Source: Amphibalanus amphitrite (Eukaryota; Arthropoda; Thecostraca; Balanomorpha; Balanidae). From it: a stretch of DNA of 64,000 nucleotides. The notes below the pieces were generated by a model. The model was not told where the DNA came from, made no database searches, and was given only the letters and a program-made list of their open reading frames with translations. The stretch is from NCBI RefSeq assembly GCF_019059575.1, contig NW_024882786.1, positions 1 to 64,000 of the forward strand. Reading direction: 5' to 3'. Each line of letters begins with the position of its first letter. Within the stretch, counting starts at the first letter, position 1. Positions 2,069-39,800 of the stretch are shown here, one piece after another. Both the position numbers and the translations under genes were made by a program.

Positions 2069-2117
2069 TTGCAATATACTGTCTTATGAGAATACTATAT
2101 ACTATATTCAAATAACG

Positions 2118-3227
<1,110 letters not shown>

Positions 3228-9843: not shown

Positions 9844-10916
9844 AGCTGCGACTCACGGCTGAGACTTCTAGGTGATATTCTGAGTGTTGTGCAAAGTTGT
9901 TCCAGTGACTACACCAAGGCAGAACCTGATGCTGAAAGATGATTGCTCATTTCTGACCCTGAAATAAAAAGGAAGAATGGCTTTAGGGCCTTCACCTAGC
10001 CTAGGATGGGCAGCACCTAGGTGGGGGTATATTGATATACATGAGTGACAGTAAGATGTTCAGCTAAACATAATAAAATAAATAATGGAGTAGCCGACAC
10101 CTTAAGGTTGCCCTACCACATTCCGGGCCCTGTTCGTTCACTGCTGCCAACAGCTTCCCCAACCTCTCGCTCCTAGTAAGCCACTAGGTGGCTTACTGTG
10201 TTGAAGGGATATGGCCGTGCTGTTGACCAATGAGAGGCTGAGAAACGCAGGCAGGCTGCTGATTATTTGTCAAGATAAGGTCCGAACTACAATTGTGACG
10301 CTGTTGATACGAATGTGTAACAGCAAAAAAAAAAAATATGTTTTAGCGTGAATAAAGTATTCCTGGATAGGACACTCCCTATTCCCCAACACTAGCGCCG
10401 GCGACCAAGCAGCTGCCCTGGTGGCGGAGCGCAGAAACATTGGCAGATAGTGCACCGGCGGTGGCCGCCGCCATATGGGGCCATGCTGTAGACGCGGTAT
10501 CACAGGGCAAAATGTTTTAGCTCGGAATTCTGATGACACGATTTTAAACACTTTCAACATATTTCTAGTCCTTTCTCAGTTTGTAACGTTCCGTTTAGTC
10601 ACTAGCACACACGGAACCATTATCAGGAGCCCATAAACTGGACCGACATTCTTGACTGGTCAATGCAAATTGTTGTCAAATAGCATCGTTCCTCAGCAAT
10701 CCCATAAGTCCTTGTTGATTAATTGTTGACAAAAGTATCCAAGAAGACACGCTCCACCCGTAGGACGCAATGCTAAAATGGCGCCGGTGCCCTATCTGTC
10801 GTTAAATTGGGTGGTCAGAAAATCGGCGGAGTGTCCAGCTATCCAGGAACACCCAATCCATGGTGTTAGGTTAGGTTAGTGATTGTTTTTCCCTTTTTTT
10901 GCGAGACATGTAAGTA
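9844..10916. other. TAF1B upstream region
   Basis: Gene-free. It holds the presumed TAF1B promoter and 5' UTR, with no TATA box I can defend. A short run of the arthropod-type telomere unit TTAGG lies at 10866-10879 (two full units plus TTAG), too short to be more than chance or an interstitial scrap. Confidence 0.5.
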
Positions 10917-15598: not shown

Positions 15599-15767
15599 AT
15601 GGAACTGACAGAGGGTGCTATCAGGCTCCTTGACAGCCAGGACTGGTTTGACCAGCTGCGAGACACAGTCTCCGAACTAGCCTGGGAGGGTGCTGATCTG
15701 CCACAAAGTGGACTCATTCTTCCTGTCACAGTTTGTGCAGACATCACGCACATCCTCGACTACTGCT
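15599..15767 (+). CDS. MCMDC2: MCMDC2 exon 1
   Basis: Begins ATG GAA CTG ACA GAG, with an in-frame stop 30 nt upstream. It ends at a consensus donor GTAAGT in phase 1. It encodes the N-terminal helices (EGAIRLLDSQDWFDQL). A truncated dispersed repeat begins only 11 nt into the intron. Confidence 0.75.
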
Positions 15768-18700: not shown

Positions 18701-21700
18701 TAGAGACCGGTTAGTAGGGTGCCGTGCACAAGTCAGTTGGAGGTACATACCCCCTCGCAATTTCGCACGTGCAAGGCCCACCCTCTCGCTCGCTCCGTTA
18801 GTCGCCCCGAAAGGCGTTATACTGGTACAATATACATACATACCCTACTAACTGGTCCCCAACCGTGTACCAAATTTGAGCGCAATCGGCCCAGCCGTAC
18901 TCGAGATCTGGAAACGGCCCCTGCACGTGCAGTAGCACCCCAACCTTAACACATGCAGATGAATTATCTGATGGAGACCTGACTGTGTACCGAGTTTCAA
19001 TTCAATCGGCCCAACCGTTGTGCCGTGCCCGTTATTGAGGTTGCACTTTTGGGGGTTGTTAAAAAATGTCCAACTTTACCACGCGCCACGTGTGGTGGTT
19101 GGCAAGAACGCATGGTTGCCATCACACCACAGAACTTTTACGTCCAAGTGACATTCAGTAAAGAAGACCGCTTGTCAATCGGATGTCCCGTTCCTAAGAT
19201 ATTAGCTTTTGAAGAGCGTCCCCACGGCCGGCCGGCCGGCCGCTCATACTCAGGATTTTCCCTTAATTCAGTATGAACTCGCTCGCTCGCTGCGCTCGCT
19301 CGCTCGTAAAAAGGAATCTTGATCCATTTCAACAGCAGAGTAAGATGTTGATATACAAAGTTACAAAAACCTAAGGTCAGGTGATATGATTGAAGCCAAG
19401 TGATGAAGAGATGATGAGAGATCTGCAAGTTTAAGATGATCAAACTTTAAGATTGAAAACACTGGTTTTGTTTTGGCCATAATTTGTTTGACTAGTTGAC
19501 CTACTTCTTTGCCATAGGTGTCTTAATCTCAATCAGCAAATGCCATGTTTTAACTTGAAGGGTAGTTACCTGGCATAATTGTTAACATCAGTTGGTTTGA
19601 CAGATGATCTGGCTGAACTGATTGTGAGGCAGCCTCGCCAGGCAGTGAGCATTTTCCAGCGGCTGACCTGTCAGTCAGTGGCTGCTCTGGAGCTCCTGCC
19701 CGGGGTCACGCTGAAACCAGAACAGGTTAGTGATTTGGGCGGCTGTGGCCATGCTGACCTTGTACCATATCCTCCGATGTTCGACCAGGTGTCGTATATT
19801 CTTGTTTATGCTCTTCTGTTACTCTATGAGACATATATGGCCATTGTGACATGAAGCCCAGCGACCTGATCCATACTTTCACCCTCATTAGGTGCTGGTG
19901 ACCCTTCGTCCATATAATCTGGTCTGCTCCGCCACCTCAGTGACAGAGGTCACTGGTCACATGATCGCCGTCAGCGGCATCCTTCTATCACGCACCCTGC
20001 CAGAGAAGTTTGTGTGAGTAGGTCCACTTCAGATCTTACATCCGACCATTTTTCCCATTCATTTTCTGCTCAGAGCTACGTTGCTCTGGCCTTATGTGAT
20101 TAAAGTAGAATGATTAGATTTTATCAGATCGATCAGATCAGATCAGATCAGAATCAGATTACCTACCATCAATCGTCAGATTTGTCATTTGTTAACTCGT
20201 CGTAGAACTCCGATAAACCTAAGTACTTACTTAGACCGGGCGGACATTCGTTGATCACCGTCGTCCCCCGTTTGTCGGCAGGGAATGTATGCGGCACGTG
20301 TGTGAGAACTCGTACTGCGCGGAGGAGCTCATCAGCGTGTTCGTGCCGGGCCGACCCCCGCCGGGCACCTTCACTGACTGCACCAACTGTGGCGCTAATC
20401 TGAGGTCAGTTGTGCCCGAACGGCGAACTCGGTGAGAAGGAGCATCTTGTCGCAAACGACCTAGTAGTTGATGGAAACCTCAAAGTTGAGGTGCACCCAC
20501 GATAAACTAACAGGAATTTTACGTCCAGGATACGGAGGTACTGCTCTAAGCGACGACGAAGCTCACTGGTAATGACTAGGTGTAGGACTGAAACATGCCC
20601 GTTTGTGGATCTTAGTGATTGATTGCGGCAAGGAATCAATTGTCAGTGGAGGCTATGACAGCATTTTCCGACCATTTTCGGATTTAGCCGACATCGACAT
20701 TAAATTCGTTAACTCCATGCAATGACGAGCAACCTCTTTCCATCCATCGCAGGGGGCAGTTAAACAGCATAATAAAAATCAATGAGCTATCCGGATTACT
20801 AGCTGTTATGTTATATAAACTATTACACCGTGCGATGACGTGTTTATGTTGGTGCTCGCAGAGAGGACGTGGGCTGCCGTCGGCTCTCGGAGGCGACTGA
20901 GGGATTTCTGGTGCCGCTGGAGGCGCTGGAGGCCCCCCTGAAGCCGTGCAAAGGGCGCTTTCAGTCGGTCCGCGTCGTCTTCCGAGGCGAGTCGCTGTTG
21001 CTGGAGGTCTAACCGTCGTCCCGTAATAAATCGTCGCCCCCGTAATGTTGGCCTTTACCCCACTAATCGAAGATCCTAGTGTTCAGACTTTCAGATTGCC
21101 TCTTTTCTGACCTCAGGTCACTACTCTGACCCCAGGTGACCTGTGCTGTGACCTCGGTCATTACTCTAACCAAAGGTCACTGCCTCTGACCCTAGGTCAC
21201 TGTCTCTGACCTCAGGTAACCGGTGACCTGTACTACTCTGACCTCAGGTCCCTGCTCCGACCCCAGGTGAGCTGTGCCGTGACCTGCACCTGGGCGGCCG
21301 GTACCGTGTCGTCGGTCAGCTGGTGAAGGTCTCGGAGGGCTCCAGCTGCCGCCTCACCCTGGAAGCTGCCAGCGTGCGGCCCATCCCGCTCTCCATCTAC
21401 GCGCAGCCGCTGGTCTGCGCCATATCGCCCGTGAGTGATGTACCCGCTGCTTCACTGTTGTCACTGATGTCTCCCGTGTTCAGCCGATAAACAACCTATT
21501 AACCGTGCAGCCCATAAACCGCCCCCTCTCGCTCCCCAGGTGATCGAGACGCTGTACCACGACCGTCGCTTCTCGCCGTGGAGTTTTGCGCTGAGCCTCG
21601 CGTACGTGTTCGCGAGCGGTCTGTCGCCGGCCGGCACCTACTTCCGACTCAAACTGGGCATGCTGCTGAGTCTGGTGGCCTGTGGCGCCATACGGGTAGG

Positions 21701-24700
21701 TGGGCTGACCTATACGGGTAGGTGGGTTGACCTATACGGGTAGGCGGGAGGAGCCTATACGGGTAGGCGGGCTTACCTATACGGGTAGGTGGGAGGAGCC
21801 TATACGGGTAGGCGGGTTTACCTATACGGGTAGGCGGGAGGAGCCTATACGGGTAGGCGGGAGGAGCCTATGCGGGTAGGCGGGAGGAGCCTATACGGGT
21901 AGGCGGGTGATTAGACGGGTAGATGGGCAGCGGGGGAATAAACGATAGGGTGGAGCGACTTGAGAGCACAGCTTGGGCTTGGAGTAATGATAGTTGGCTC
22001 GTGACCTCACGTTATGACTAAATCGGCATAGCGCTACTTTCTCGGTTGTATTTATTTTTATTTTAATGAATTACGGAGACTGACTGATGGTGGATTTCTT
22101 CCTTTTGACAGGGTTCGCCAGTGTGTCAGTGAACTTGATCTACATTCATCGATTCCAGCCTCCGACACATTCAATTTTACCTTCGTCGCCCCAGTGCATC
22201 AATCGCTCTTCTGCCCAGGAAAGCAGTAACGCACGGAAAAATACACCATGTCCCGCCACCAAACTGCCCACTCCCTCTCTCTGTCCCTCTCCCTCCCTCC
22301 TCACCCCTCCTCTCTCCCTCCCGCACCGCAGCACAGTCGCCTGCAGCCGCTGCTGGCGGTCGGGCCGGACGTGGGCTCCCTGGTGCGACTCCTGAGCCAC
22401 GGCGCCGGTCTGGCTCGCCGCTGCGTTCGACACACCTGCCCCGGACCGCTGGCGGGCCGGGCCGCGCGGCCGGCAGTCGGCGGGGCGGCCCGAGCTGAAC
22501 TGGAGGCTGGCTCACTGCTGCTGGCGAGGGGAGGAGTCTGCCTGCTGGGGGATCTGAGCAAGTACCGCAGGGAGGCGCTGCACACACTCCAGAAAGGTGA
22601 GAGGGGTGGTCGAAAACTGAGACTAGGGGTGGGGTCGTTAGTGATGGGCGAGGAGGAGCTGGGTAGATAGAATGGGAGCCCTGTCACTGAACAGGTTCAC
22701 AGCTATCGTGTTTGAGTTGTGGGAGAGTGATGAGGCAGTTAACCTCTTGAAGCTGCCTGTAATGGAAAGTCAGGGCATTTATGATATGTGCTCCACGTTT
22801 ACAACATCTTCTGTAACTCTGCCTTGCTTCTTTTGATGCAGGTCTTCGCCGATCGTCAGACATTGCATTGGTTGGTCTCGGAGTTGAATTCATGTCCATG
22901 TTCCAGGTCTGGAGGTGGGCTCAGTCAGCGTGGTCTGTCCCCAGGTCTGGAGGACCGGACTCAGTCAGCGTGGTCTGTCCCTGTCCCCAGGTCTGGAGGT
23001 GGGCTCAGTCAGCGTGGTCTGTCCCCAGGTCTGGAGGTGGGTCTGTCAGCGTGGTCTGTCCCTGTCCCCAGGTCTGGAGGTGGGTTCGGTCAGCGTGGTC
23101 TGCCCGGCCTCCCTGTCGGGTACCGGGCGGCCCGAGTCTGTGTCGATGCCGCTGCTCTGCCAGCCCTGGGCCGTGTACGACTGTAAGCCGACCGGCGGCA
23201 CGGACCTGAACTCCAGCCTGGTTAGCGACTCGGCCAGTCTGGTGGGCACGCAGACCAACGCCCTGCCGCGCACACTCACAGAGTGAGTACCTATGAATCC
23301 CCACACCCTCACGGCTCACACTGTACTTAGTACTTGCTGGGTCACAAACGGACGCACTGCCGCGCACCCTCACAGAGTGAGTACCAGTGGCATATCGCGC
23401 CTGGGAGATATTTTGTTATCGTTAGCAAAAAAGGTTAAATATGGCGCCGTGGGTGACCCGTCTATGAGTGAGTCCTTACAGGGTGTTTTGTTGTGATGTG
23501 TGGAGTTTGATCTAATGCACCTCCCGTTCTCAACTCTCTGGTATGGTGCTGTGACGTCCTATTTGATTACATCCATCTTCCTTCCCCGCAGGGCGTTCGG
23601 CGTGGTCTACTACACCGAGTCAGCCGACGACTGTGATGACCTGGCCTGTGACCTGGCCACCTGCCAGCTGCTGATGGCGGCCGGCGGCGGGCGGGTCGAC
23701 CAGCAGCTGGTGCCGGACAAAGACCTGACGGCGGTGGGTGAGAGGCGGATGGGGTAGGGTCTGTATGGCCGCCGGCGGCGGGCGGGTCGACCAGCAACTC
23801 GTACCGGACAAAGACCTGATGACGGTCGTGAGCGGATAGGGTAGATCGAGACATCGTGATTGGGTGGAGGTTAAAGGCAGGTGTCTTTTCTAAGTGAATG
23901 GATGAGCTGAGGATCGAGTGATGGCAGTTGAGAAGCAGGTTATTTTGTGTGAGTGGAAGGGATAGACCAAGACCCGATGTCAGTCATGTGGGTAGGGGAG
24001 CAGGATGTCTGGTATTGAGAGGTAGACTAGGAGCGTGCAATGAAAGCGGACTGTGTTGTCAGAGCTGGAACCAGACCGCAGATGAGTCATCCAGCATTTG
24101 TAGCGCAGCCTTTGTCCATCCTCCCCTGACCTCTCTCTCCTGCTGTGCACTCTGTCAGTTTCTGGCGGCGGCGTGCGAGCTCTCTCTGGACCTGGAGCCG
24201 GACGCCGAGCGGTTAGTGCGCCGCTACTTCGTGGCCAGTCGGCGGGTGCGCACCTCCAACGTGCCAGACGTGCCCGTGGCCGCCGTCAGCACCATGTGAG
24301 TTACTGGGGTGGAGGGTGTGCACCTCCAACGTGCCAGACGTGCCTGTGGCCGCCGTCAGCACCATGTGAGTTACTGGGGAGAAGGGTGCGCACCTCCAAC
24401 GTGCCAGACGTGCCCGTGGCCGCCGTCAGCACCATGTGAGTGACGGGACTCCGTAGGGGGTGGGCGCAGGTCGAGTTGGTTGTCACTGTCTGCCGTTGAT
24501 CGTCACTCTGCTGGTATCGACTTTATTGTGTTTAGTAAGCAGTTAAAACATTGGAGAATGCGAGCATATGATAGGGACCGCTGCCTATCCTGTGCATTCA
24601 TCCCGTTCCCTACTCATCCTGATTCGATACTTGGTGTCTGGACCTCAACTCTAGCCCCACTTCTTCTGTTTCTTCACCCTCCTCAGTGCGATAAAAACCA

Positions 24701-25392
24701 GACCAAAGAGACCTCCCAGTTTGGCTATCTCTAACCAACGACCTCTCCCCGCTGCGAGCCTGGTCGATAGAGTCAGACCGCGACTGATCCCTGACCTCCC
24801 CTCCTCCGCAGCTCCGGGCTGGCCCACGCGTTCGCCCAGCTGTCTCTGCGCGACTGTGTCACCGTGGATGACGTCACCATGGCCATTCTGCTGTATGAGG
24901 AGTCGCTGGCGGCGTGTTTCGGCTACTCGCCGCTAGATGTCTCTCATACGCCGCACATCAGGGAGGCCGACCTGGACGCCAACCTGGGCAGACAGGTGAG
25001 GGGCCGATTGGACGTGGCTGCTGATTAATTATGGCTGTGATTGTTTCCGGAATGTCTCATATGTAATGGTATCTTATGTTTTTTTTTTTCAGGAGCTATC
25101 GAATTGCGTAGATTATGATGAATCACTCGAGCGCATTGCAATTGTATTATGCGGTCGTTTATTGGTTTTACATTTTTGTTACATATATATTGACATTAAA
25201 ACAGCAGCAGGTTGATTGTATCATCTGTCTGTATTTGAGCGCGGGAAGTGCTACTTAAGAGTGTACTCCCCTTATGCTACTTTTTCTGTTTCAACATTTT
25301 TGAAGACGTTTTCCTCGTTTCAGAATGACGAGAGGATGCGCGACTTCCAGCGTCGACTGGAAGAGTTTATCAGCGAGTGGGCGCTGCTCTGA
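15599..25392 (+). CDS. MCMDC2: MCMDC2, MCM domain-containing protein 2 (13 exons, complete)
   Basis: Exons: 15599-15767, 19604-19725, 19892-20013, 20282-20404, 20862-21006, 21272-21430, 21540-21695, 22332-22596, 23072-23282, 23592-23733, 24159-24295, 24812-24995, 25324-25392. They sum to 2004 nt in one frame, 667 aa (human about 680). MCMDC2 is the atypical MCM of meiotic recombination; fly mei-217/mei-218 are the counterparts, acting with REC/MCM8 to promote crossovers. The order is N-terminal helices, a zinc-ribbon-like insert (exon 4, paired Cys), OB-fold, then an MCM/AAA region. Hallmarks are VFASGLSPAGTYFRLKL, LLARGGVCLLGDLS at the Walker B site, EAFGVVYY and YFVASRRVR. A canonical Walker A is missing, as is usual in this family. 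The start ATG follows an in-frame TAA at 15569-15571. Several exon borders carry tandem echoes of their splice sites. Confidence 0.9.
15779..15982 (-). mobile_element. dispersed repeat element, truncated copy E
   Basis: Starts CCAGTAAAACGCCTTTTGGG, the inverse of the family 3' end, includes one GCACGTGCGCACGTGC palindrome (about 15934), and stops abruptly at the LINE fragment. It sits 11 nt after the exon 1 donor of MCMDC2. Confidence 0.8.
15983..16295 (+). mobile_element. LINE reverse transcriptase relic, 5' part
   Basis: Frame coding VPLHKAGSRDSAVNFRHISI, HSTEDAL and SVDLSRAFDSVDHG, the first motifs of a non-LTR retrotransposon RT (Jockey/CR1-like style). The endonuclease and 5' half are missing. 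The frame is broken by the inserted element at 16296 and continues at 16989. Confidence 0.85.
16296..16988 (+). mobile_element. dispersed repeat element, copy B, nested in the LINE
   Basis: Full-length copy of the family in a diverged subtype (ends TTACGAGTGAGCG and TTTTACTGG). Palindromes lie at 16665-16680 and 16792-16807. Removing it rejoins the RT reading frame exactly (…CATGG / TATTTTATTG…), which shows the insertion point directly and leaves no extra duplicated bases. Confidence 0.88.
16989..18110 (+). mobile_element. LINE reverse transcriptase relic, 3' part
   Basis: Continues the RT with HGVPQGSLVGPILF and the catalytic SYADDTQLL, then the thumb and C-terminal region (PHILYCLSVWGGAA, ALSYRAASSWNRLP). 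At least two frameshifts break it, near 17170 and 17830. It is therefore a dead copy, in the same orientation as MCMDC2 within intron 1. Confidence 0.88.
18134..18825 (+). mobile_element. dispersed repeat element, copy C (full length)
   Basis: 692-bp copy of the A subtype, from TTACGGAGCGAGCG to GGCGTTATACTGG, with two GCACGTGCGCACGTGC palindromes. It lies just after the end of the LINE relic. Confidence 0.87.
18842..19309 (-). mobile_element. dispersed repeat element, truncated inverted copy C2
   Basis: B-subtype copy in inverse orientation, lacking its 3' third. It ends CGCTCGCTCGTAA. With copy C it forms a large inverted pair about 16 bp apart. One palindrome is deleted to half size (TGCACGTGCAG). 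Confidence 0.82.
19604..19725 (+). CDS. MCMDC2: MCMDC2 exon 2
   Basis: Acceptor TTTGACAG, donor GTTAGT, phase 1 in and 0 out. It encodes DLAELIVRQPRQAVSIFQRL, matching the human segment with HILHQPLKAAEVFQ. Confidence 0.85.
19892..20013 (+). CDS. MCMDC2: MCMDC2 exon 3
   Basis: Acceptor CTCATTAG, donor GTGAGTA, phase 0 in and 2 out. Encodes the N-terminal beta strands with VTGHMIAVSGILLSRT, the start of the OB-fold. Confidence 0.82.
20282..20404 (+). CDS. MCMDC2: MCMDC2 exon 4
   Basis: Acceptor TCGGCAG, donor GTCAGT, phase 2 in and 2 out. Carries the zinc-ribbon-like segment: Cys pairs in CENSYC and CTNC separated by about 28 residues (ISVFVPGRPPPG), as in the MCMDC2 family. Confidence 0.85.
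20862..21006 (+). CDS. MCMDC2: MCMDC2 exon 5
   Basis: Acceptor GCTCGCAG in phase 2; donor after GAG is GTCTAA, a weak site, so the 3' border is less sure. Encodes the OB-fold part with KGRFQSVRVVFRGES, matching human FRFQSLTIFLRDES. Confidence 0.75.
21100..21271 (+). repeat. MCMDC2: acceptor-like tandem array before MCMDC2 exon 6
   Basis: Six to seven degenerate copies of CTCTGACCYCAGGT, ending at the exon 6 border. The closest echo repeats the pattern CTGACCCCAGGTGACCTGTG of the junction CCGACCCCAGGTGAGCTGTG. Each copy offers a CAG/GT that could act as an acceptor. Confidence 0.75.
21272..21430 (+). CDS. MCMDC2: MCMDC2 exon 6
   Basis: Encodes LCRDLHLGGRYRVVGQLVK and the following strands; donor GTGAGTGATG, phase 0 out. 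Phase demands an acceptor at GTGAG/CTG, five nt after the prettier CCCCAG. The exact 5' border needs RNA data. The intron just upstream holds about six CTGACCYCAGGT acceptor-like copies. Confidence 0.7.
21540..21695 (+). CDS. MCMDC2: MCMDC2 exon 7
   Basis: Acceptor CTCCCCAG, donor CGG/GTAGGTGGG, phase 0 both sides. Encodes the strongly conserved FALSLAYVFASGLSPAGTY and KLGMLLSLV. The donor is the first unit of a 10-copy minisatellite. Confidence 0.88.
21687..21915 (+). repeat. MCMDC2: minisatellite of the MCMDC2 exon 7 splice donor
   Basis: Ten units of about 23-24 bp, each with CTATACGG/GTAGGYGGG, plus a degenerate eleventh. The first unit is the genuine exon end and donor (CCATACGG/GTAGGTGGG). 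The rest lie in the intron, so the array offers about ten equivalent GT sites. Confidence 0.93.
22332..22596 (+). CDS. MCMDC2: MCMDC2 exon 8
   Basis: Acceptor GCACCGCAG, donor GGTGAGAG, phase 0 in and 1 out. Covers the degenerate AAA core: LLAVGPDVGSLVRLL at the Walker A place, with no GKS/T, and GGVCLLGDLSKYRRE at Walker B. Confidence 0.87.
22902..23110 (+). repeat. MCMDC2: tandem array of the MCMDC2 exon 9 acceptor and exon start
   Basis: Five copies of CAG/GTCTGGAGG..., with junctions at 22907, 22945, 22991, 23029 and 23072; spacings are 38, 46, 38 and 43 nt. Each carries a TGTCCCCAG acceptor (the first TGTTCCAG) and about 30 nt of exon-like sequence (GGTCAGCGTGGTCTGYCC). The last is the real exon. 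Confidence 0.93.
23072..23282 (+). CDS. MCMDC2: MCMDC2 exon 9
   Basis: Acceptor GTCCCCAG, donor GTGAGTAC, phase 1 in and 2 out. Encodes VSMPLLCQPWAVYDC, which aligns with the human MTFPVQCSFWSFVDV segment. Four further copies of its acceptor and start lie upstream, and one copy of its end and donor lies downstream. Confidence 0.83.
23258..23385 (+). repeat. MCMDC2: duplicated exon 9 end and donor
   Basis: The 34 bp at 23258-23291, ending CTCACAGA/GTGAGTACC, recur at 23352-23385 with two mismatches, 94 bp downstream inside the intron. Both donors are intact. Confidence 0.92.
23592..23733 (+). CDS. MCMDC2: MCMDC2 exon 10
   Basis: Acceptor CCCCGCAG, donor GCG/GTGGGT, phase 2 in and 0 out. Encodes EAFGVVYYTES (human EAFGLLINCNES) and VDQQLVPDKDLTA. 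The intron holds a second diverged copy of about 85 bp around its 3' border. Confidence 0.83.
23674..23843 (+). repeat. MCMDC2: duplicated exon 10 end and donor region
   Basis: About 85 bp spanning the exon 10 3' border recur 91 bp downstream at 23765 with roughly 85-90 percent identity. The copy has lost the original GTGGGTGAG but keeps GTCGTGAG. Confidence 0.9.
24159..24295 (+). CDS. MCMDC2: MCMDC2 exon 11
   Basis: Acceptor TCTGTCAG, donor CCAT/GTGAGT, phase 0 in and 2 out. Encodes ELSLDLEPDAERLVRRYFVA and SRRVRTSNV (human YYLASRRIRTDSV). Its last part and donor are present three times in tandem. Confidence 0.87.
24247..24445 (+). repeat. MCMDC2: triplicated exon 11 end and donor
   Basis: Three 70-bp units with donors at 24296, 24366 and 24436 (each CACCAT/GTGAGT), nearly identical over about 55 bp of exon sequence. 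Use of donor 2 or 3 would read ATG TGA, an immediate stop. Confidence 0.95.
24812..24995 (+). CDS. MCMDC2: MCMDC2 exon 12
   Basis: Acceptor CTCCGCAG, donor CAG/GTGAGG, phase 2 in and 0 out. Encodes the C-terminal helices SGLAHAFAQLSLRDCVTVDD and AILLYEESLAACFGY. Confidence 0.87.
25324..25392 (+). CDS. MCMDC2: MCMDC2 exon 13 with stop
   Basis: Acceptor GTTTCAG, phase 0, stop TGA at 25390-25392. Encodes RMRDFQRRLEEFISEWALL, matching the family end QQQLEQFIATYGPG. Confidence 0.85.
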   Translation, partial: NDERMRDFQRRLEEFISEWALL

Positions 25393-26785
25393 GGGACGCA
25401 CGGTGAGAGGTGAGCGGCCGGGCGACCCGGGCGAGAGCTGGGGGCGGCCATGATCTGAGGGGCGCCTGGTGAGGCGAGCGGCCTGGGTGAGAGGCGAGGG
25501 GTCGTGCAGAGGGGTGAGCCTCGGCCCTGCTCTGGATGTTACCGGCTCAGGGTCCTGGCTGAGACAGGCTAGCTGCCGGACCGACTGTGTACGGCATCTC
25601 AATTATGGCAGGGCCCTGTACGAGAAGCGGCGATTGATAAGTATAGTGTATCACTTGTGACTTGATTATGTCGGTCTGTGTTCCATGTGGTCTGGACGTC
25701 GATTTCGCTGTTACGTTTGAAGATATTTATTATGGCGTGTTAGTCTGTTCCTCGCTGTTATGTGGAAGAGTTATGTTAGCACTCAGTCATTAATCATGTT
25801 ATGTACAATTTCTGCTCTAGTCTGTTAAACATTTTACCAGTGAATTGTTGTTGAATCATGATATGACGCTACAAATGCGAACAAGTTCCCAATTATCATC
25901 TTGCTTGAATTTTTACGACTTTGTCGGCTGTGCTGACAAACGATATCGTTGTCTGTTGTCTCCAATTGTTTGTTGAATCATTTCCAGTTGTCTTATTTAC
26001 TGTGGTATTGTCTCTTGGTTTGAATTTGACCTACTCATGTGAGATAATTACTTTTTTACACATCCTGAATCTGAGACAAGTGTTCGTCGGTGAATGTTTG
26101 AAGTTTAAATAGCTTCTTCGTTTTTAAGAGTTTCAGACTTTTTCATACTGGCGTGTCGCGCTCTCATAAAATGCGTGTCGACATCACATAAAATGACGCT
26201 TCTAAAAAGAACTCTGCACAACCCCGAGAACCACACCACCCATCTGCCAACCCGGGTTATGCAGTCGACAGTACGTCGTATATTCATGTTTATACAAACA
26301 CGTCATAGCTCGTCTCGAAGGGCCGGCCGGGATGCTCACTGTCAACAGGCGACTCCCGGCGACAAGCAGCGAAAGGAACAGGTAGCCACTGCGGGCCGCC
26401 TCTATGGGGCCGGGACACAGACGGGCCGCGAATCACAGGTGACGCCGGGGCGTCGGCACCGGGACCGGCTCGAGCGCCGGTAACGGTATTGGTGGCGGGG
26501 TCTAGTGGAGACCGAGGCAGGCGGGTAACATTGATAGGGCCCGGATCGCGCCAGACTAGCCGCCACGGTGAATCACTGGAATCGAATCACAACATAGCTG
26601 CGTGCGACTGAATAGTTTCGGATCCATGATCAAAGCGATCGGATGAATTAGGGAACAGCGGAGTGGTAGTTTCTTGTATACGCCCAGTCTCACGCGGTAT
26701 TTCATGTACAGGTATCGCCTTACATCCCTGCCACAGCCGCCACCGTCCTGTGACTGAACACAGGTTAAATAACACGCCGCTGCCC
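25393..26785. other. MCMDC2 3' flank
   Basis: Presumed 3' UTR and spacer. The first 100 bp hold an imperfect duplication of the stop-codon region (see findings). No clear AATAAA close to the stop. No further gene. Confidence 0.5.
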
Positions 26786-26789
26786 GCCG

Positions 26790-26880
26790 CGCCCTCTGAC
26801 GGAGACCTCAGCTCCGCTCTCTGACGGAGCTGTGCTCCGCTCTCTGACGGAGCTCTCAGCTCCGCTCTCACCGTAAATGC
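26790..26880. repeat. short tandem repeat with CTCTCTGACGGAGCT units
   Basis: Three or so units of about 27-30 bp containing CCGCTCTCTGACGG. The same core recurs in the coding repeat of the NELL tail at about 27480-27650, so the two arrays may share an origin. Confidence 0.7.
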
Positions 26881-27302
26881 CCTCCGGCGCAGCATAGGTG
26901 GCGACCCTGAGCTAAAACCACTCGCAACAACAATAGCCTCTGGCCCGGGCTCACACCTCGCCGCGCACCCTTTGTACGTCTCACTGACGTCACGCAATCA
27001 GCGACCAATCACACAACAGAGAGCTGCGCGCCGGGGGCGGGGCACAGCGACTAGAACACTTTGAACGGCAGTAGACAGGCGTGCCGGGTCGGTGATATGA
27101 CCGGGCGGCGGCACCGCCCGTCGCGCGCCGCTAAACAGAACACCGATTGGCCGCGCGGCGAAACGACTAGTGAACATCGCAGATTATGTTGGGAGTCCCG
27201 GCGCCGGTCGGCGCGGCGGGTACCACTTGATCTATTCCCGGATCGCATTGACTAGCACGAACTGTGGCGCGTCACTGCCGGCTGGGGGACCGCGGCCGCC
27301 GC

Positions 27303-27839
27303 CTACGTCCTAGAGGGGGCGTCGTGTGCCACGTCCACCGCACTGGGCGTCGCCGCGCCCTCCCCTCGCGCACTGGCGTCCCTCGCGGGCGCAGAGTCAC
27401 TGAGCTGGCCGGCGGTGGCCGGTGGCTCGATAGTGGTGCTGCCTGGCGTGGTGCCTGGCGGCGTGGTGCCGTCTGGGGGCACGGTGCCACTCTCTGGCGG
27501 CACGGCGCCGCTCTCTGACGGCACGGTGCCGCTCTCTGGCGGCGTGGTGCCGTCTGGCGGCACGGTGCCGCTCTCTGGCGGCACAGCGCCACTCTCTGAC
27601 GGCGTGGTGTCGCTCTCGGGCGGCGTGGTGCCGCTCTCTGGCGGTGCTCTGATGGTGCTGCCCTCTGCGGTGACTGTCGCCGGGGCGCGCTGCCGCGGCC
27701 GCTGGAGGCCGGCGGGCGGCTCCGTGATGTGCGTTCCGCCGGCGACTCGCCACTCTCCTCCAAACACGTGGAGACGAGCAGTCGCTGGGCCAGAAGCACA
27801 GACACGGTGGCCAGGGTAGCCGCACCAAAGCTGGCCGTC
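27303..27839 (-). CDS. NELL: NELL last exon: VWC5 end and Pro/Glu/Ser/Thr repeat tail
   Basis: Acceptor GCGACAG in phase 0, stop TAG at 27303-27305. It opens [14 protein letters not shown], corresponding to human NGHICCSVDPQC at the normal NELL end. It then continues about 160 residues with repeated PPESGT, PSESGA and PPDGTT units, a mucin-like tail absent from vertebrate NELL. All three antisense frames stay open through the repeat, so the chosen frame rests on splice phase and the Cys pattern. Confidence 0.72.
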   Translation of the reverse strand, partial: DGQLWCGYPGHRVCASGPATARLHVFGGEWRVAGGTHITEPPAGLQRPRQRAPATVTAEGSTIRAPPESGTTPPESDTTPSESGAVPPESGTVPPDGTTPPESGTVPSESGAVPPESGTVPPDGTTPPGTTPGSTTIEPPATAGQLSDSAPARDASARGEGAATPSAVDVAHDAPSRT

Positions 27840-30800
27840 CTGTCGCGAACACAAAAGGTCGTAAGATGACAGCAAACATCGGTAGCAGTTGTAATCTACA
27901 AACTAGGATTTCGTCATTCAGGAACTACTGAGTACAAAACAATTATCAAAAAAATACAGTGGGCCGTTCTATCATTCTACAAAAAGGGTACATTAAACGT
28001 TATGTACAAATTCAAGATGCTGAGATATGGCTAGAAAATACGCGAGAAAGATTATTTAGACCATAACATATATATATCGGGCGAAGAATCAGTTACCGAT
28101 GCGATTTATATCCCGGAAATTCGTTGAACCCCTGCTTAGTGCGAATACACGTGCAGACATTTGGCACGAGGTAGTGACAAGCGTGAAATCAGGCAGCAGA
28201 GAAGTGAGTAGGTGAGAAATTACCGAGGCACACACGCGGAATTTTTGCTCACCAACTTCTCACAAAACGGCACCTGCAATCAGAAAAGCGTTAGTAAATC
28301 CGCTAAGGAGTTAGCTCCCGAGCTTGCCGCCGCTCTCACACATACAAACACGAGCCGGCAAAACGATGTAAGATTATTGCCGTGGCGTTAGTTGTTAATA
28401 AGGGTCGTTAGATTCGAATACGCCACCGGTTACTAGGTGGGTTGGCCATGGTACTATTGGGACACTTAAAATATTATTAAACATTGGGTGTAAAATCACG
28501 CTAGTAGCACACATCGCTATCCTTCATAGCAAAACTGTCTCGCCAAAACACTACAAAGCGCAAACGTCGCACGGAACCCTGGGGCGAAGCATTGGACAAA
28601 TCACACCACTCTCGTCCTCACTGCCTCCCTCGTACAGTCTGTCTTAAAAGTACCGCGCAAAGTGACGGTGGATCCATCAAGCCTGACCGATGAAGGACTG
28701 CCAAATTTGAGTCACCGAAGCAATGGACATCCTCGTCCATTCCCCAGCTCCATTGGTTCGGTGACTTTCAAATTATAGCAGGCCCTTCCTCGGTCAGGCT
28801 TGATGGATCCACCGTCACTTTGCGCGGTACTTTTAAGACAGACTGTACACCCGTGTGGCGGCGCCTCTCACCATTCTCACCTTTCCCGCTCTGCGTCTCA
28901 CCTGTGAGCGGCCCGCTCTGGCTCTCACCTTGCACCGGCAGTCGGGGCAGTGGGCCTGCAGCGTGCGCCAGTGAGCGGCACTGGCCAGCGCCTGCGGCGG
29001 CGCCGCGATGTTGCAGGGCGCCGCCGTGGAGCGGTTGGCGGGTGCTGCGCACGGGTCGTCCTCGCAGCGCGGACAGCAGTCGCCCTCCGGCCACACGGGG
29101 TTGGAGCAGGCCACAGGGGGACACTGCTGCTGCCAGCAGTCGATCTCACCGGCCTGGGGGACGGGGGGGGGGGGAAGGGGCGTCAGTGGGGGAGCTGCAG
29201 GTTGAAATCTGCAGGTCAGACATTGAGGTCAACGGTCTAGAGAAAACATTTCTATTTTCGCTATCCTGAAAGATGTTGGTATGGGGAGGACGCTAGAAAT
29301 GGATCATAGTTTTACCAGTGGCAGTGCAGAACCGTACTGATTTATGACGGTGTTGTTTTTGGACGCTGTCCCAATGTCATCATTTTACAATGAAAAAGCT
29401 GAATGGGCGATAACCACCCAGGCGCCACCAATACCAGCCTCAGACACTCGGATTAGCAGAAGAAACATCAGTGTGATCGGATCTAGACCGCCTTCATTTT
29501 TCACCAATCTCCGAACCGACCTAACGATGGTCGCTATCTTTCCAATCCGTAAATCCTTCGCTGCCAAAGTGTCCCCAATGAACTCTTCCCAATCGCCCGT
29601 AACCATCTCTGGCCGCTCCACCCCATATCCCATCCCCACCCCTCCTTTCACTCTGGGGCGTCAGTATTCAGTAACGCTGGTCCCGGGTCAGCCTTCCGGC
29701 GGGCGGGGGCTCGCGCGGCGACTTTCTATCGATTCAGGGTTACTGGGAAGGACGCGGTGTGTGGGGCGACGGATCCACACACCCATGGTAGTAAACAGGG
29801 CGTTTGTTTTCGGTAGTGCATCGCCCATGTGTTGATGAGGAGTCAGAAATGGACAGGATTGCGATGGCTGCGATGATTAATGTGCCGTAAAACATGTGGG
29901 TGAAGAATGACTGCTGTCAAGACATTGACATGTGGCTACTGGCTAAGAAGCCTACTGCTTGTGTTATGAAATTTACGACAGCTTTGGTTGGGCCCTGCGT
30001 GTTGGGAGTCCTCGGCATTGTAGGAGTTGAGTCGAAACACGAGAAATTCTTGAAAAATGTGTGCGCAGCGGCTGCTGGTTGTTTCACGAAACACAAAAAA
30101 AGTGCTCACAAATTCTCCTCACTCATTTAATTGGTGGTCACTCACCAGACACTCGCAGAGCTGGCACTGGTGCAGCCAGCGGTCTCCGTTTCTAAACCGA
30201 ACATTGGGTCTCGTCTGGTGGAAACAACCCGAACTGGAGTCGCACCTGTCAGATACAGCGCTGCGTTAGAACAGGGGATACGAATACCAGCATATGCACT
30301 TCGATAAGTAATCTGGATAGAACCACCCGAGTCACATAGTCTTAGCAGCTTGGGCCGTAAGGCTGGATAGTGGGTGGGGCTTCTATAGATACAGTCTTAA
30401 ATAATAGGCATATGAATGAATAGGAGACGGTTCAAAGCATCGCGCGGATGGATTCTCAGTATAAAAATTCTGGCTCATGCTGAAAACATGAAGTAAGTTG
30501 TTACTTAAATGACCGTTATATAATGCTTGTTATGCAAGATGTGATAAATATTAAAATAGCCCTGATGAATAAATAATTACATTTAACTGTAAATGTACCA
30601 TTAATTCAGCACAGTAAGAATAAATACTATCGTCCATGTAAAGCGGTACTTATATAGCTACAGTAGCTGCCATAGAATTCTACTCTATGACCTTTCGTCG
30701 TCACTCACTTTGGGCAGCAAGTGACGTCCACGTCGGGGTCGGAGCAGTCGCACGGTCGTGGCTGGCACGTGGTCACGCCGTCCAGGCAGAGGCACGTGTG

Positions 30801-33800
30801 GCACGCGCGTTCCGAGTCGGGCCAGCTGGAGCCGTGCGGGTGCACCTCGTCCCCGACGGTACAATCTGAGGTCACAGGAGGTCAGATGGTCAGACAGGAC
30901 CTCGTCCCCGATGGTACACCCTGGGGTCACAGGGGAGGAGCAGGTCGTGCGGGGTGGGCTGGGGTGTACCATGAACGTAAGGTCAAGCGGGATGGATTGC
31001 TGGCGAAAAAGGCCATTAGCAGCAGTGTTCAAGGACGATTTAATATTTTATCGTCTTTGCTTGGATCTGACTTATCTTGATTTTAGGGCGTGCAGTTGTA
31101 AAACAGTTTGAGGTTCTAACAACGATGAATGGGGTTCTTTTCTTAGATTCTCTTTCTCGTTCACAATGAGAATTGTGTGGAGTCGGTATGCATGCAAGAC
31201 GAGGACAACTTATGTAATTACAGTTTCAGAATGTAGGTACGGAGAACCAATCATGTTTCTTTCGTCAGACTCTGTAGTCGACACGGTAACCTTTCAGGCG
31301 ACAGTTGTCTGCCTGTTATCTCGGCTCGGTGTGCCGACACAACAACACCGACCTCCTAACGAGAATGTTATCGCGCTGCAAAGAAACACAAGGACACCGC
31401 CTCGTGCCTCCAGAATATCAGAGCCGATAGACCGTGTACACGGCCGCCGCGCCGCGCCGCGCGACATTAGACCGCCAGGGCGATAACCTGAATTTCACAC
31501 TGTTCCCGCCCACCTGGTGGCGCCGTCACGCGACAGGGCACTTCTCCCCAGAGACCCCTCTGTCACCTCCCCGTCCCCCTCTCCGTCCCCTATCGGTAAC
31601 AACATTGCGCGGGGTTTCCGTAAAGAGCCGATCGGTGGCTCCCCACTGAGCCGTCCTTTTTTGCCGTCTCGATGGGCACTTGAAGGGTCGCCGTTTTATT
31701 GGCTGCGTGGACGATAGGGGAGCGTTAGCGGGCCGTGGGCCGGCCGCAAGGGGACTGATAGAATGGAGCCGCCGACAGCGCGAGGTGTATTTCAGGATTA
31801 TAGATAGAGAGCCGGGCGCAGAGGGAGATGTTTGAACAGAGGGAGCCTGCAGGGGAGAACCGGATGGTGTGAGGTCTTTATCACGGTCTCACAGCCGCGC
31901 GACGGCAGAAGACTGAGAGACTTTGTTTTCGCTGCCGAAAGACAAAACCAACGCATGCAAGATTGTCGCCAAGGGAGCGGTAGGGATTTATTGGAATACA
32001 ATTCAAGGTGCGTAAAAGGCACGGCAGGTGCTGGATATGCAAAATAAGAATAATAATTCAGTTGAAATTGCCCATTGCCTTCTCAATGATTTTCAACAAC
32101 CACATAAATTAGCACTGGCCCCAGAAGTCAATTACCTGAAAGGTCTCGCAAGTGGTAACAGAATACATTTCCTAAATATCAGAGACGGATTAAAAGCTCA
32201 TTTACATACTAACCCACACGTGTCTGTAGCACCCAAAGTCAAAAGTTCCCAATGGTCAGTAGAGCGTAACTCACTGTTGGTGCACTGTAGGCCGACACAC
32301 TCGCACGTGTAGCTGCCGTTAGTGTTCACGCACGTGGCCTGCGGGTCGCACGTGTGCAGATTCTCGCTACATTCGTCGACATCTGTGGGATGGAGTTTGG
32401 GTCAATGCGAGTGAGATCACAGGGCCGTAGTCAGGAAGCTTGTTTTTACCCGGGCGGCCGCCGACCGAGCCGTGAGGCCGTGCGGCACAGCATAACTTCA
32501 GGCGGCCGTTACTCCTGCCATCTAGCGACAAATTCACAAGTTTTGAATATTGATACGCCCGATGTCAAAGTTCTCGACGATAGGAGAAAACGACTTCCTG
32601 AAATTTGACGAAAAGTTATCTCATAGTAAAAACAAGGTACATTTATAGTTGAGGTTGGAAATATAGATGTTGCGGAATAGATAAAAAGCGAGACTGTGCT
32701 GAATAAACTGACTAGACCGTAACAAACTGAAGGCGGATAAATCGCTACCATTACATCAGCTGTGTTCTCGCTCGGTTACAGAGCTAACATGTTTGACTAT
32801 TGTCGTGATGACGTAGTCATGTAAACTTCACAGAAACCGTTGTTAAGCTCAGCTCGCCAACAATGACGCCAAGCGGTTGTTGCAAATGATTTGCTATTTC
32901 CGAGAACACCTAGAGTCCGTCGAGACGGTTGCTAAGGCAACTTCGTACGGAGGCTGATTTATTGTGACATCGTCCTATATCAGATGATTTGTGGTAGAGC
33001 ATATTGCATGGACAGATAATGTATAGTTACGAGTCGTACGTGAGATTTACAGTGCATTGTGCCTCAATAATTCGGCTTGAATTTCGAGTTACATTTATTT
33101 ATTTGAAATTGTTTTAACGGACTTTCACTGGGTAGTGAAACTGGGTTTTAAAACTGGTAGTAAAACTGGGTTCACTGGGTTTCACTGGGTAGTTTTTTTG
33201 TCTGTTTTAAACCTATGTGTGCCCCATCGAAGACTTTTCAATACAAGTCGGAGTACCGGGACCAATAATAACTTTTACCCACTACCCAGTGAAAGTCCGT
33301 TAAAACAATTTCAAATAAGCATTTACCTGGGTATTAACTATTAAGACATGACTCTTCAGTCTCATTTACATTTATTTCTATGCATTTGTTAAAGAAATTA
33401 AACATTGAACTGTCTTGTCTGTTGAAACAAACTCGACCAAAGTATCTACACCGGTGATGCCGTCTCGCTGTGCGGAGTCTCACCTATGCAGGTGGTGCCC
33501 AGGGTGCTGTAGTCGGGGTCGGCCCGGTACCCGTCCCGGCACTGGCAGTGGTACCAGCCGGGCATGTTCACACACTCCGAGTGCGGGTGGCACTGGTGCA
33601 GACCCACGCTGCACTCGTCGATATCAGCCTCGCAGCTGGGACCGCCGAAGCCGCGCCGACACGAACAGTTGTCGGGCGCCACGCACCGGCCGCCGTTCTC
33701 ACACGGCTGGCTGCAGATGGCTGTCGGGGCCGGAGGGATCGTCAGGATCACTGGTCACTGGTCACTGGACACTGGTCACTGGTTAGGACAGGGCAGTGTG

Positions 33801-36800: not shown

Positions 36801-39800
36801 CAGACGCGTATCTGATCCCTCCCCCACCGCAGCACGCATCATAACGCGCCGCTCTGGGACGGGGAGGCTGCCTCCGCCGCTGCCCGTCCGCTCTGCCTAT
36901 CCGCCCGACCGCTGATACCTCACCACTGGGAGGGGAGAGATCTCCGGTGGTAGCACAAGACCGCACAGATTAATACGATCACAGTATACCGCATATTCGC
37001 TCAGATTGATTGCGGGGAGGGGCGTGCTCGGAGCACGCATTGTGGGCGGGGTTTCTCGAGATAACTGTTGATTTTGGTATGCTGATAGGTTTTCTTCGTG
37101 GTTGACTTGAGAGTAGAGACAAACGTGAAATCTCAGTCAGAAGGGGCCAAGATGAATTGACTTTGATATGCGATGATGCCGAAGGATAAATGTTGCGTGT
37201 CATTACACAATACGGAAGAGGGTCCCACATGTATCTCTGACATGTTACCCGTCGGTCGCTCACCTTCGCAGGTTTTTCCATCACCCTTGTAGCCGTCGTT
37301 GCACTGGCACATGAAACTGGCCTGGAGGTTGACGCAGGTCGCGTGAGGGTCGCACTCGGGTCGCGCCTGTGCACAGTAGTCCGTATCTGCAAAAAGAAAA
37401 CGGGTCACAATGTGGGCTTGATGTTTTCTACACCACCTGATTATGATATTCGCAACGAGGTCGTCAACAAGTCGGCAAAGGCCCCACATGATTTATTCAA
37501 AATGTGTTCATTTCCTTTGGCAATTGTACATAAAATTGAAATGGCATTCACAAGTCACGTAACTAACGTTTACAAGCACGATTAGATAGCAGTAATTGAT
37601 AATGTAGTTTTCCGACCAGATACATCAGAGGTCATTATATACTGACCTCTGCAGAGCTGACATTCCTGCCCTATCACTGACCTCTGCGGAACTGTCACTG
37701 ACCTCTGCAGCCCGGGACTGTCACTGACCTCTGCAGGACACTGACCTCTGCAGCCCGGGACTGTCACTGACCTCTGCAGGACACTGACCTCTGCAGAACT
37801 GAAACTGACTTCTGCAGCCCAGGACTGTCACTGACCTGTGCAGAACTATCACTGACCTCTGCAGAACTGGCAGCATTCTCCAGACATGTTGAGTCGCTGC
37901 TCGGGCGGACACTGCAGAGGTGGACAGTGCTGCTCGGGAATGATGGTGCTGCACTGCATCACTGAGTCGTGACACTCGCAGGTCATACACCGGTCGATGG
38001 CCACCTTCTCACCGTGCTCGTACGAGCGCTGGTTCAGAAAACACTCGCCTGGGGGCACACAGGTCGTCAGAGGGGTCAGCGTCGGCGGCAGAGAGGTCAC
38101 GGGATCAGGCAGGACGGGCGCCAGGGTCGCAGTCTCAGTGGCTAGCGGCAGTTCAGAAGAAGAGGTCACAGAGGCGAAGTGCGGGATCAGAAAGAAAATG
38201 GTCGAGGCAGGTAGTGGTGGGAATGGCCGGAGTGAGCTTATTTGATGAAATTTGCTCGAAGGAGCAATGGAAAGTCGTAACCTATGAGTGGCGCTTAGAC
38301 TGGATCAAATATGAAATGCGTTGTGTGTGTCATGATAAAGTTAAATGTATCGTGAAAAGTGGAGACAATACAGGAGCCACCATTGATTTGACGATGAAGG
38401 TTTTCAGGTTTTAGACGAAATAGGTAGGCATGGAGGTGTTCTATACGGGTTTGCTTTATCATCTTCTCATTCATGTAAGTAAAATCAATCTGGTGGGGAG
38501 CTAAGTTTCGTAATCGCATTCTCCATACAAAAATGCACAGTTTCGGCCTCCTTAGTTCTGAAGAATGAATCGCATTGCTGGCTTGGCATTGTTGCCGGTT
38601 GACTGCCGGTTTCCATGACAACGTGCATACAGACTGTGTAAGGACGACACGGCTTTCAGCCCCTCGGGTCAGCGGATACGCCGTCCACCCACGCCGTCAT
38701 TCTTTCACGCCACGTTACGTGAATAAGGAAAGAAGGTATGAACCTTGCTTTCCACTTGCACCGTCTGCAGTGCAGAAACAATCAATGGCCTCCCTTGGGA
38801 GACGTGACGGCATTTGACGAAGGTATGTAATTGCCACTTTAATTGTACTTGTTGGCGTGAGACTTGTTATGAATTTCAAGCTCCATTACCTGAATAAATG
38901 ATGACTCGTTATTTAACGGTCGGTCGAGCCTTGGTGAAAGAAGCATCAACGGAGTCTAGGTCAAATATAACGTCCTTATAAACTGTGAAGGCAATGCAAA
39001 AGTTTTCTACCGCAAAGGTGTTGTTTACCCGTTTATGCATTCAAGCATCGACTTAATGAGTGACAACTTTGTTGGACTGTACAAATTCAACAGCAAGCTC
39101 TCCTTTGATCTGCCGTCTAGACAGTGTTTCGGCCAAGAGCAATATTGTTTGAGTTGATTTGCAGGCGTCACCGAGTTTGTTTGGCGGTGGCGGTATCCCT
39201 GACCTCTCCAATGACGCCAGGAGCGGGGGAGCGGGCCCCTGCCGATGGGGTGCCAGCAGCGCGCACTGACTGCCGAGACGTATCCACTCGTCATATAGGC
39301 ACTGAGAGCTCCTGGATTCTCTGGGGAATCTCGCCTTCTGCCCAAAGGGTTACAAAATATAGCAACCGTCTGTTTGGTCTGGATTTCTCAAAGATGCGCA
39401 TAGTAACTGGTCCTACCACTAATCTTAACACCAGTATAACGCCTTTTGGGGCGAGTAACGGAGCGAGCGAGAGGGTGAGCCTTGCACGTGCGAAATTTCG
39501 AGGGAGTACCTCCAACTGACTTGTGCGCGGCACCCTACTAACTGGTCTCTAGCGATGTGCCAAATTTGAGCACAATCGGCCCAGCCGTTCTCGAGATCTG
39601 GAAGCGGCACTCTGCACGTGCGCACGTGCAAAATGGGTCCCAACTGACTTGTGCACGGCACCCTACTAACTGGTCCCTAACCGTGTACCAAATTTGAGCG
39701 CCATCGGTCCAGCCGTTCTCGAGATCTGGAAACGACCCCTGCACGTGCGCACGTGCAGCAGCACCCCAACTCTGGCACATGGATATGCAGTGCCTAGTGG

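Follow-up and report, generated by a model that had tools for sequence, protein, structure and literature searches.

Whether exon–intron borders are places where tandem duplications preferentially arise, or places where they are tolerated once formed, is the question raised by a 64,000-nucleotide stretch of the genome of the barnacle Amphibalanus amphitrite (contig NW_024882786.1, positions 1–64,000; C1289:1-64000 of our assembly G000), hereafter the window, which was analysed within an assembly of 807.6 Mb in 2644 contigs. A first-pass annotation of this window had reported that at eight exon borders of two genes, MCMDC2 and NELL, the splice junction itself is tandemly copied, and had proposed that duplication acts repeatedly on existing borders, so that introns grow outward and competing splice sites are supplied, at a density for which no described system was known to it. 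We find that all eight borders are duplicated, and that the arrays are of a known kind, the mirage of amphioxus genes, in a new lineage. The explanation that we favour, with a probability of roughly 0.7, is that these mirage-type minisatellites arise by ordinary minisatellite turnover followed by a selective sieve, no dedicated machinery being needed and the duplication of splice sites being a by-product.

Splice junctions are tandemly copied at eight borders of MCMDC2 and NELL

Borders were described by an ungapped score for repeats spanning the junction and by an exon-echo score, in which 60 base pairs (bp) of each exon edge were matched to the 400 bp of intron next to it, 1016 non-adjacent comparisons in both genes serving as the control. 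The duplicated borders are as follows (a slash within a sequence marks the junction):

21106–21285, + strand: acceptor array of MCMDC2 exon 6, built of ~20-bp units CTGACCTCAGGTCACTG that continue into the acceptor (21266/21267)
21690–21927, + strand: donor array of MCMDC2 exon 7, ATACGG/GTAGGYGGG present 11 times in 20–23 bp units
22901–23105, + strand: acceptor array of MCMDC2 exon 9, CCCCAG/GTCTGGAGG... present 5 times at 38–46 bp, in 81-bp pairs (a super-unit)
23258–23385, + strand: donor of MCMDC2 exon 9, present twice at an offset of 94 bp (23258–23291 and 23352–23385), echo 20.0
23674–23826, + strand: donor of MCMDC2 exon 10, present twice at an offset of 91 bp, ~60 exon bases copied, echo 45.0
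24241–24447, + strand: donor of MCMDC2 exon 11, present three times at an offset of 70 bp, echo 52.0
37641–37872, − strand: donor array of a NELL VWC exon (38048–37857), 10 copies of TTCTGCAGAG/GTCAGTGA 17–35 bp apart
30844–30933, − strand: acceptor of a NELL VWC exon (30865–30709), 2 copies at 55 bp, ungapped score 25.0, echo 17.5

As had been reported, each of the eight borders carries at least one extra copy of its junction in the adjoining intron (2–11 copies, that of the exon included), the copies lie on the intron side in 8/8 cases, and five donors and three acceptors are affected across both genes and both strands. Two copies are present at the exon 9 donor, the exon 10 donor and the NELL acceptor at 30865, three at the exon 11 donor, and 5–11 at the other four borders. 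Neighbouring junction copies are ~17–94 bp apart; the lower end of the unit range given previously (23–94 bp) was slightly off. With the exon copy included the arrays span 90–233 bp beside introns of 280–1409 bp. The proposal that duplication has acted repeatedly on existing borders is supported for donors and acceptors in both genes.

The arrays differ in anatomy. At the exon 6 acceptor, six anchored copies lie 19–40 bp apart and are joined by a second-order copy at 131 bp, the lag at which the ungapped score across the junction reaches 36.5; the exon echo at this border is 14.0, versus a control maximum of 13.0. The exon 7 donor array crosses the donor at 21695 with an ungapped score of 32.0, and its unit, which holds just 6 exon bases, was detected by the ungapped scan. 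The exon 9 acceptor array has no stop in the frame of the exon along its entire length (open reading frame 22888–23286, + strand), and the two copies at the donor of the same exon are separated by 60 bp of unlike DNA, so that they are not strictly head to tail. At the exon 10 donor the match frays with insertions and deletions at the junction and its ungapped reach extends just 2 bases past it; this border scores 0 in the ungapped junction-spanning measure, yet was counted as on-junction in the placement test described below. The third copy at the exon 11 donor is identical to the exon over 16 codons. The NELL donor at 37857 has an ungapped score of 30.0 and an exon echo of 13.0.

Six of the 48 exon edges exceeded every one of the 1016 non-adjacent comparisons, with adjacent scores of up to 52, and a seventh edge, the NELL donor, tied with the control maximum; chance similarity was rejected on these grounds. 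Introner elements would likewise fill introns with repeats that carry splice sites. In the barnacle, by contrast, exon-edge sequence recurs in adjacent and not in non-adjacent introns of the two genes, and introner-like spread was not seen between the introns of MCMDC2 and NELL, where the best non-adjacent score of the 1016 was that same 13.0.

Further repeats were seen in the two genes:

28873–28937, − strand: weak extra NELL donor echo (exon 29153–28929), AGGTGAGA recurring 21–27 bp apart
25387–25480, + strand: faint copy of the region of the MCMDC2 stop codon at lag 66, no splice junction
27433–27644, − strand: coding minisatellite of the last NELL exon, with periods mainly of 21, 60 and 81 bp

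The NELL echo at 28929 is weak (score 14.0, reached by 0/2000 shuffles, the best of which scored 12.5) and was left out of the 10 placement-tested events. A copy of the MCMDC2 stop region had been listed alongside the eight borders; it is present, but is weak, its score of 17.0 being reached by 1/2000 shuffles. The main periods of the minisatellite in the last NELL exon are all multiples of 3, with a short 15-bp row also present at its edge, whereas most spacings of the junction arrays are not; 21 bp (NELL donor array) and 81 bp (the exon 9 super-unit) are exceptions. This difference is the residue expected from frame selection within exons and tolerance at borders.

The borders were placed on the following gene models:

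15599–25392, + strand: MCMDC2 gene, 13 exons
MCMDC2 exons 1–7, + strand: 15599–15767, 19604–19725, 19892–20013, 20282–20404, 20862–20986, 21267–21430, 21540–21695
MCMDC2 exons 8–13, + strand: 22332–22596, 23072–23282, 23592–23733, 24159–24295, 24812–24995, 25324–25392
27303–51108, − strand: NELL gene, 13 exons within the window
NELL, first 7 exons in the window, − strand: 51108–50953, 47313–47185, 42721–42628, 38048–37857, 37386–37264, 35023–34919, 34210–34055
NELL, last 6 exons in the window, − strand: 33720–33484, 32382–32275, 30865–30709, 30245–30146, 29153–28929, 27839–27303

The joined MCMDC2 exons encode 662 residues, of which 121–662 are identical to A. amphitrite MCMDC2 isoform X2 (NCBI, P0001), while the first 120 residues (exons 1 and 2 and the start of exon 3) come from the model alone and include none of the eight duplicated borders. 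The joined NELL exons are 100% identical to A. amphitrite NELL1-like isoform X4 (NCBI, P0003) across the 772 residues of the window model. Both proteins annotate the same assembly as the window and are not independent sequence. Pfam matches agree with the gene names, with MCM_lid at the cut-off for MCMDC2 and VWC, EGF and Laminin G domains for NELL. Intron 5 of MCMDC2 (20987–21266, + strand) appears to be of the GC-AG type (GAG/GCGAGT ... CCCCAG/GTGAG), and the join reproduces the NCBI protein; a model with the exon 6 acceptor 5 bp further in and exon 5 ending before GTCTAA was dropped, the NCBI protein fitting the GC-AG intron. NELL isoform X1 (NCBI, P0004) uses a small alternative exon at ~28273–28226 (− strand) and then reads the last exon (27839–27303) in another frame; both frames are open across the 21/60/81-bp coding repeat, making this tail potentially dual-coding.

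The arrays correspond to amphioxus mirages and recur in other barnacle genes

The term mirage was introduced for tandem repeats across exon–intron boundaries in amphioxus Adh3, and globin genes were also found to have them, according to PMC3087553. In that paper, 5′ as well as 3′ borders are affected, and one haplotype of BflGb6 has 6 units where another has 3. PGBD5 and TnC are given as further amphioxus cases in PMC3902484, and these two papers report splicing to be undisturbed and Adh3 to be somatically unstable. The mirages of Adh, TnC, the globins BflGb6 and BflGb9, and PGBD5 resemble the barnacle arrays in consisting of boundary-spanning tandem repeats, in affecting both borders, in carrying AG or GT in many copies and in differing between haplotypes. 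In the barnacle, the boundary lies inside the unit at 8/8 borders, donors as well as acceptors are duplicated, and copy number varies between haplotypes at the MCM3 and MCM8/9-like genes described below. The earlier view that no such system had been described is not supported. The barnacle case differs in that it concerns a crustacean, that six borders of a single gene (MCMDC2) are affected, that the haplotype differences lie at two other genes (4/9 and 2/3 copies), and that copies are 17–94 bp apart, compared with units of 150–160 bp in the globins and 10–72 bp in Adh3 of amphioxus.

Arrays of the same type recur at borders of other genes, namely an MCM3 donor, an MCM8/9-like donor, a myosin acceptor, a Cpn60/CCT-family acceptor, and NELL borders beyond the window:

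L028, 5511–5961: MCM3 donor array, junction GACCAACGAGCGCAG/GTCAGT
MCM8/9-like donor: junction CCGTCAAG/GTTAG, duplicated
Contig C52, L049, 1217–1350: myosin acceptor array
L059, 1153–1249: Cpn60/CCT-family acceptor array
C1289, 76414–76754: array at NELL donor 76737, outside the window
C1289, 72938–73043: array at NELL acceptor 72960, outside the window

The two MCM genes are presumed to be MCM3 and MCM8/9-like from the peptides TTDQETNERR and SAGLTCAAVK, with a Pfam MCM match beyond that. A further NELL donor outside the window, at 68610, has a weaker array of three copies that falls below the cut. Haplotype status was assumed for seven MCM contig pairs, whose aligned blocks have mean identities of 83.5–94.0%. 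Between the members of such pairs, the MCM3 donor array has 4 copies on one contig versus 9 on the other, and the MCM8/9-like donor array 2 versus 3. No second copy of MCMDC2 or NELL was found among the matches listed, of which only the best candidates were scored. The copy-number differences are consistent with the picture in the related barnacle Balanus improvisus, described in PMC8270832 as hyperdiverse, with extreme nucleotide diversity.

Other known systems share some features with the arrays. Intron gain by AGGT duplication (ATP2A1, potato RdRp and fission yeast; PMC4974935) shares with the barnacle the tandem duplication that supplies GT and AG sites beside an exon, whereas in the barnacle existing introns are lengthened at their ends and no new intron is shown. 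The internal tandem repeats of human segmental duplications (PMC2812944) are likewise minisatellites, some of them at exon–intron boundaries and altering gene structure; those are variable repeats in recent human paralogues, whereas in the barnacle genes an altered structure is not shown.

In the literature found, repeats called mirages were known just from amphioxus, and no barnacle or arthropod mirage was present in the literature searched (openly licensed papers, by title and the start of the abstract). With a crustacean that has many mirages, two of which differ in copy number between haplotypes, the trait occurs in two or more lineages that are only distantly related. The barnacle arrays also offer a tractable system for the choice of the spliceosome between near-identical competing sites, and for the rate at which junction duplication leads to intron or exon change.

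Probable turnover with a selective sieve, and the case for junction targeting

Under the explanation that we favour, local tandem duplications would be produced by slippage, template switching or break repair, and would be commoner in GC-rich, exon-dense DNA. A sieve would then act on them: copies in the interior of exons would persist just if they preserve the reading frame (the last NELL exon being an example), while copies at borders would be tolerated, the message being unchanged as long as the exon-proximal site is used and the remainder is removed with the intron. Use of the exon-proximal site is seen at the level of the annotated proteins MCMDC2 X2 and NELL X4 and X1, not of RNA. Copy number would shift between alleles, as seen at the MCM3 and MCM8/9-like genes, most simply through unequal exchange, and, with one copy held by coding sequence, an echo may stay recognisable for longer than the likeness between two free intron copies. 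In favour of this explanation are the eight verified arrays, their counterparts in other genes, the haplotype differences in copy number, the mostly non-triplet spacing at junctions next to triplet periods inside the exon, the exon-to-copy differences given below, and an excess on junctions of about two-fold over GC-matched placement, inside the window and outside it. Even under purely neutral turnover, annotators would have no need to treat repeated junctions in barnacle genes as errors.

For the background and placement tests, stretches resembling transposable elements (TEs) or simple sequence (1380–2075, 2110–3320, 15780–19310 and 39430–40110) were masked by eye, and low-complexity matches were removed by an entropy cut; the window itself had been chosen because of the border pattern. 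Outside the masked stretches, the two gene spans contained 10 local duplication events, eight of them on a junction, the remaining two being an intron-interior repeat (41817–41902) and the coding repeat in the last NELL exon. Uniform placement predicts 2.3–2.4 events on junctions (P 0.00005–0.0003), and placement matched for GC alone predicts 3.7 (P 0.006–0.007). Much of the apparent centring thus results from short exons packed in GC-rich DNA, which leaves a remainder of about two-fold inside genes.

Several observations weigh against turnover and a sieve. Against GC-matched non-exonic placement, 4.3/10 events were expected on junctions in the two genes where 8 were seen (P 0.014–0.018). Across the whole unmasked window, 8 of 11–16 events, depending on the cut-off, lie on junctions versus a GC-matched 2.1–2.8 (P 0.0002–0.0023), an excess that looks stronger because this figure also counts the tendency of genes to attract events. 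In NELL beyond the window, both of two events are on junctions versus 0.29 expected (P 0.019). MCMDC2 is an outlier, with 6/24 edges duplicated, a density that a neutral account leaves unexplained; the comparison is with 5/~130 edges of MCM genes, myosin genes and the window part of NELL, a provisional tally that includes a rough 37 for MCM (half of 74 edges) and predates the Cpn60/CCT-family and upstream NELL edges. Moreover, some intronic copies outscore the site in use on a splice-site matrix derived from the window, and the protein evidence for exon-proximal use is limited to the three isoforms named above.

The same placement figures, together with the occurrence of just 1/10 events in an intron interior, would be in keeping with a model in which the border itself starts duplications, for example through R-loops, pausing at splice sites or repair involving splicing intermediates, with introns growing outward as a result. 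Since the window had been selected for the pattern, genes beyond it were tested, giving 141 exon edges from MCM genes (one haplotype per gene), 34 myosin exons in 20 regions from 100 matches listed, 7 exons of one Cpn60/CCT-family gene from 101 matches, and the NELL exons at 64–91 kb on the contig of the window. The MCM, myosin and Cpn60/CCT-family edges were placed by a splice matrix around Pfam matches, some sites being low-scoring and the assignments approximate. Of 16 events in all these outside sets, 6 lay on edges versus 3.5 expected with GC matching (P 0.10) or 3.2 with uniform placement (P 0.07). No clear excess was seen in the MCM genes, where one haplotype had 2/9 events on edges (2.4 expected) and the other 2/3 (1.4 expected), or in myosin, with 1/4 (0.65 expected). 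Likewise, 68 myosin exon edges gave no clear exon echo, the best score of 13.0 (p 0.002) lying under the shuffle maximum of 14.5. The claim that duplications are centred on splice sites is thus only partly supported.

Strong genome-wide targeting was down-weighted accordingly; it is not shown beyond the window, although upstream NELL alone points toward it. Junction-targeted duplication as the cause of the arrays seems unlikely to us, while a preference for junctions is possible. We would also raise, tentatively and as a less likely reading, a broader picture in which barnacle borders would be a preferred birthplace of tandem duplications, introns would grow from their ends and the alleles of a population would differ in how many splice sites of nearly equal strength they carry. 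With the same phenomenon present in amphioxus, marine animals of very high diversity might keep replenishing a reservoir of duplicated junctions, and new splice sites, exons and introns could arise from it.

Splice-site strength, reading frame and divergence of the copies

Sites were scored with a matrix built from the other junctions of the window, with a printing cut of 2. Intronic copies equal the site in use at the exon 9 donor (9.7 and 9.7), at the exon 11 donor (10.9 three times) and in the exon 9 acceptor copy at −81 (12.4), and most copies in the NELL donor array tie with the used site (8.6), one being higher (10.0). Two copies at the exon 6 acceptor (13.1 and 12.9) exceed the used site (10.5) and three are weaker, and the NELL acceptor copy scores 11.6 versus 9.9. 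The exon 10 donor copy is lower (4.2 versus 5.0), and most exon 7 copies fall under the printing cut. With several copies scoring at least as high as the site in use, the proposal that the duplications supply competing sites is supported.

Every inner copy tested in the five donor arrays would lead to a stop or a frameshift; those of exon 7 at +22 and +44 have no stop but shift the frame. Among the acceptor copies, 4/5 at exon 6 would introduce a stop and 1/5 a frameshift, and the NELL one would shift the frame. Two of the four copies at the exon 9 acceptor (−81 and −165) would insert 27 and 55 in-frame residues, respectively, with no stop. The annotated proteins MCMDC2 X2, NELL X4 and NELL X1 use the exon-proximal copy every time, and the isoform numbering implies that further isoforms exist. 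Occasional use of duplicated sites in RNA is possible.

These data bear on whether selection maintains the copies because, as competing sites or decoys, they modulate splicing or provide short in-frame insertions. The retention of strong sites in many copies (exon 9 and 11 donors; exon 6, exon 9 and NELL acceptors) would be in keeping with such a role, as would the two in-frame inserts at exon 9. We nevertheless consider it improbable, more so than junction targeting, given the weakness of the exon 10 copy, of three exon 6 copies and of most exon 7 copies, the stops and frameshifts met by the inner donor copies in all five donor arrays, the differing copy numbers of the MCM3 and MCM8/9-like haplotypes, and the exon-proximal choice in the annotated proteins seen.

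Divergence between exon and copy was counted in seven arrays, one copy per array (at exon 11 the +70 copy was used and the identical +140 copy omitted). This gave 12 synonymous and 8 non-synonymous differences, one NELL codon at the edge contributing two of the eight. The ratio departs from an expectation of 27% synonymous, corresponding to change in just a free intron copy (P 0.002), and is compatible with 42.5%, corresponding to synonymous change in the exon and free change in the copy (P 0.09), both expectations being set by us. Translation of the intron copies as the source of the synonymous differences was set aside, since 12 versus 8 fits a constrained exon and a free copy. A comparison by codon at the exon 9 acceptor showed three synonymous states that the copies at −81 and −165 have in common and the exon lacks; there, either the exon seems to have moved or the copies to have been homogenised.

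Intron birth and assembly error

Echoes of this kind might also be the remains of introns born by tandem duplication of AGGT-bearing exon segments (the Rogers model), which is accepted for single cases (PMC4974935). Some units do contain CAG/GT (exon 6 and exon 9 acceptors), and the exon 10 edge faintly matches the opposite end of its intron, in GGC-rich sequence (11.5, shuffle p 0.001, maximum 12.5). In 7/8 array introns, however, the exon edge is unlike the opposite intron end or the edge of the next exon (p 0.17–0.87), and for introns longer than 800 bp, 18 comparisons of exon edge with opposite end gave at most 10.0. Judged by sequence likeness, the echoes therefore do not look like remains of intron creation, an origin that we consider highly improbable. 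Collapse or mis-expansion of repeats during assembly is equally hard to credit: although short-unit arrays are prone to it and one aberrantly assembled amphioxus mirage is on record in PMC3087553, the units are imperfect and mutually different, simple two-copy cases occur, and separate contigs share the MCM3 and MCM8/9-like arrays at different lengths. Copy numbers, however, may be inexact.

Other features of the window

Two inverted repeats, possibly foldback elements, lie in NELL introns, one of 65 nt with 98% complementarity and arms 87 nt apart in the last intron (28632–28848), and one of 39 nt with 100% complementarity in another (33099–33318). An intronless open reading frame of 890 codons (7183–9852, − strand) has Pfam matches to the Rrn7 zinc ribbon and the Rrn7/TAF1B cyclin domains. 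A coding exon at 5308–5505 (+ strand), for which Pfam returned no match (5309–5503), resembles, on visual inspection, the C-terminal part of a fibroblast growth factor. A dispersed element built of 128-bp tandem units containing TGCACGTGCGCACGTGCA occurs at 1659–1983, 16687–16907, 18412–18740 and 39512–40013, and a repeat with a 128-bp lag and similar sequence is present on contig C44 (L021).

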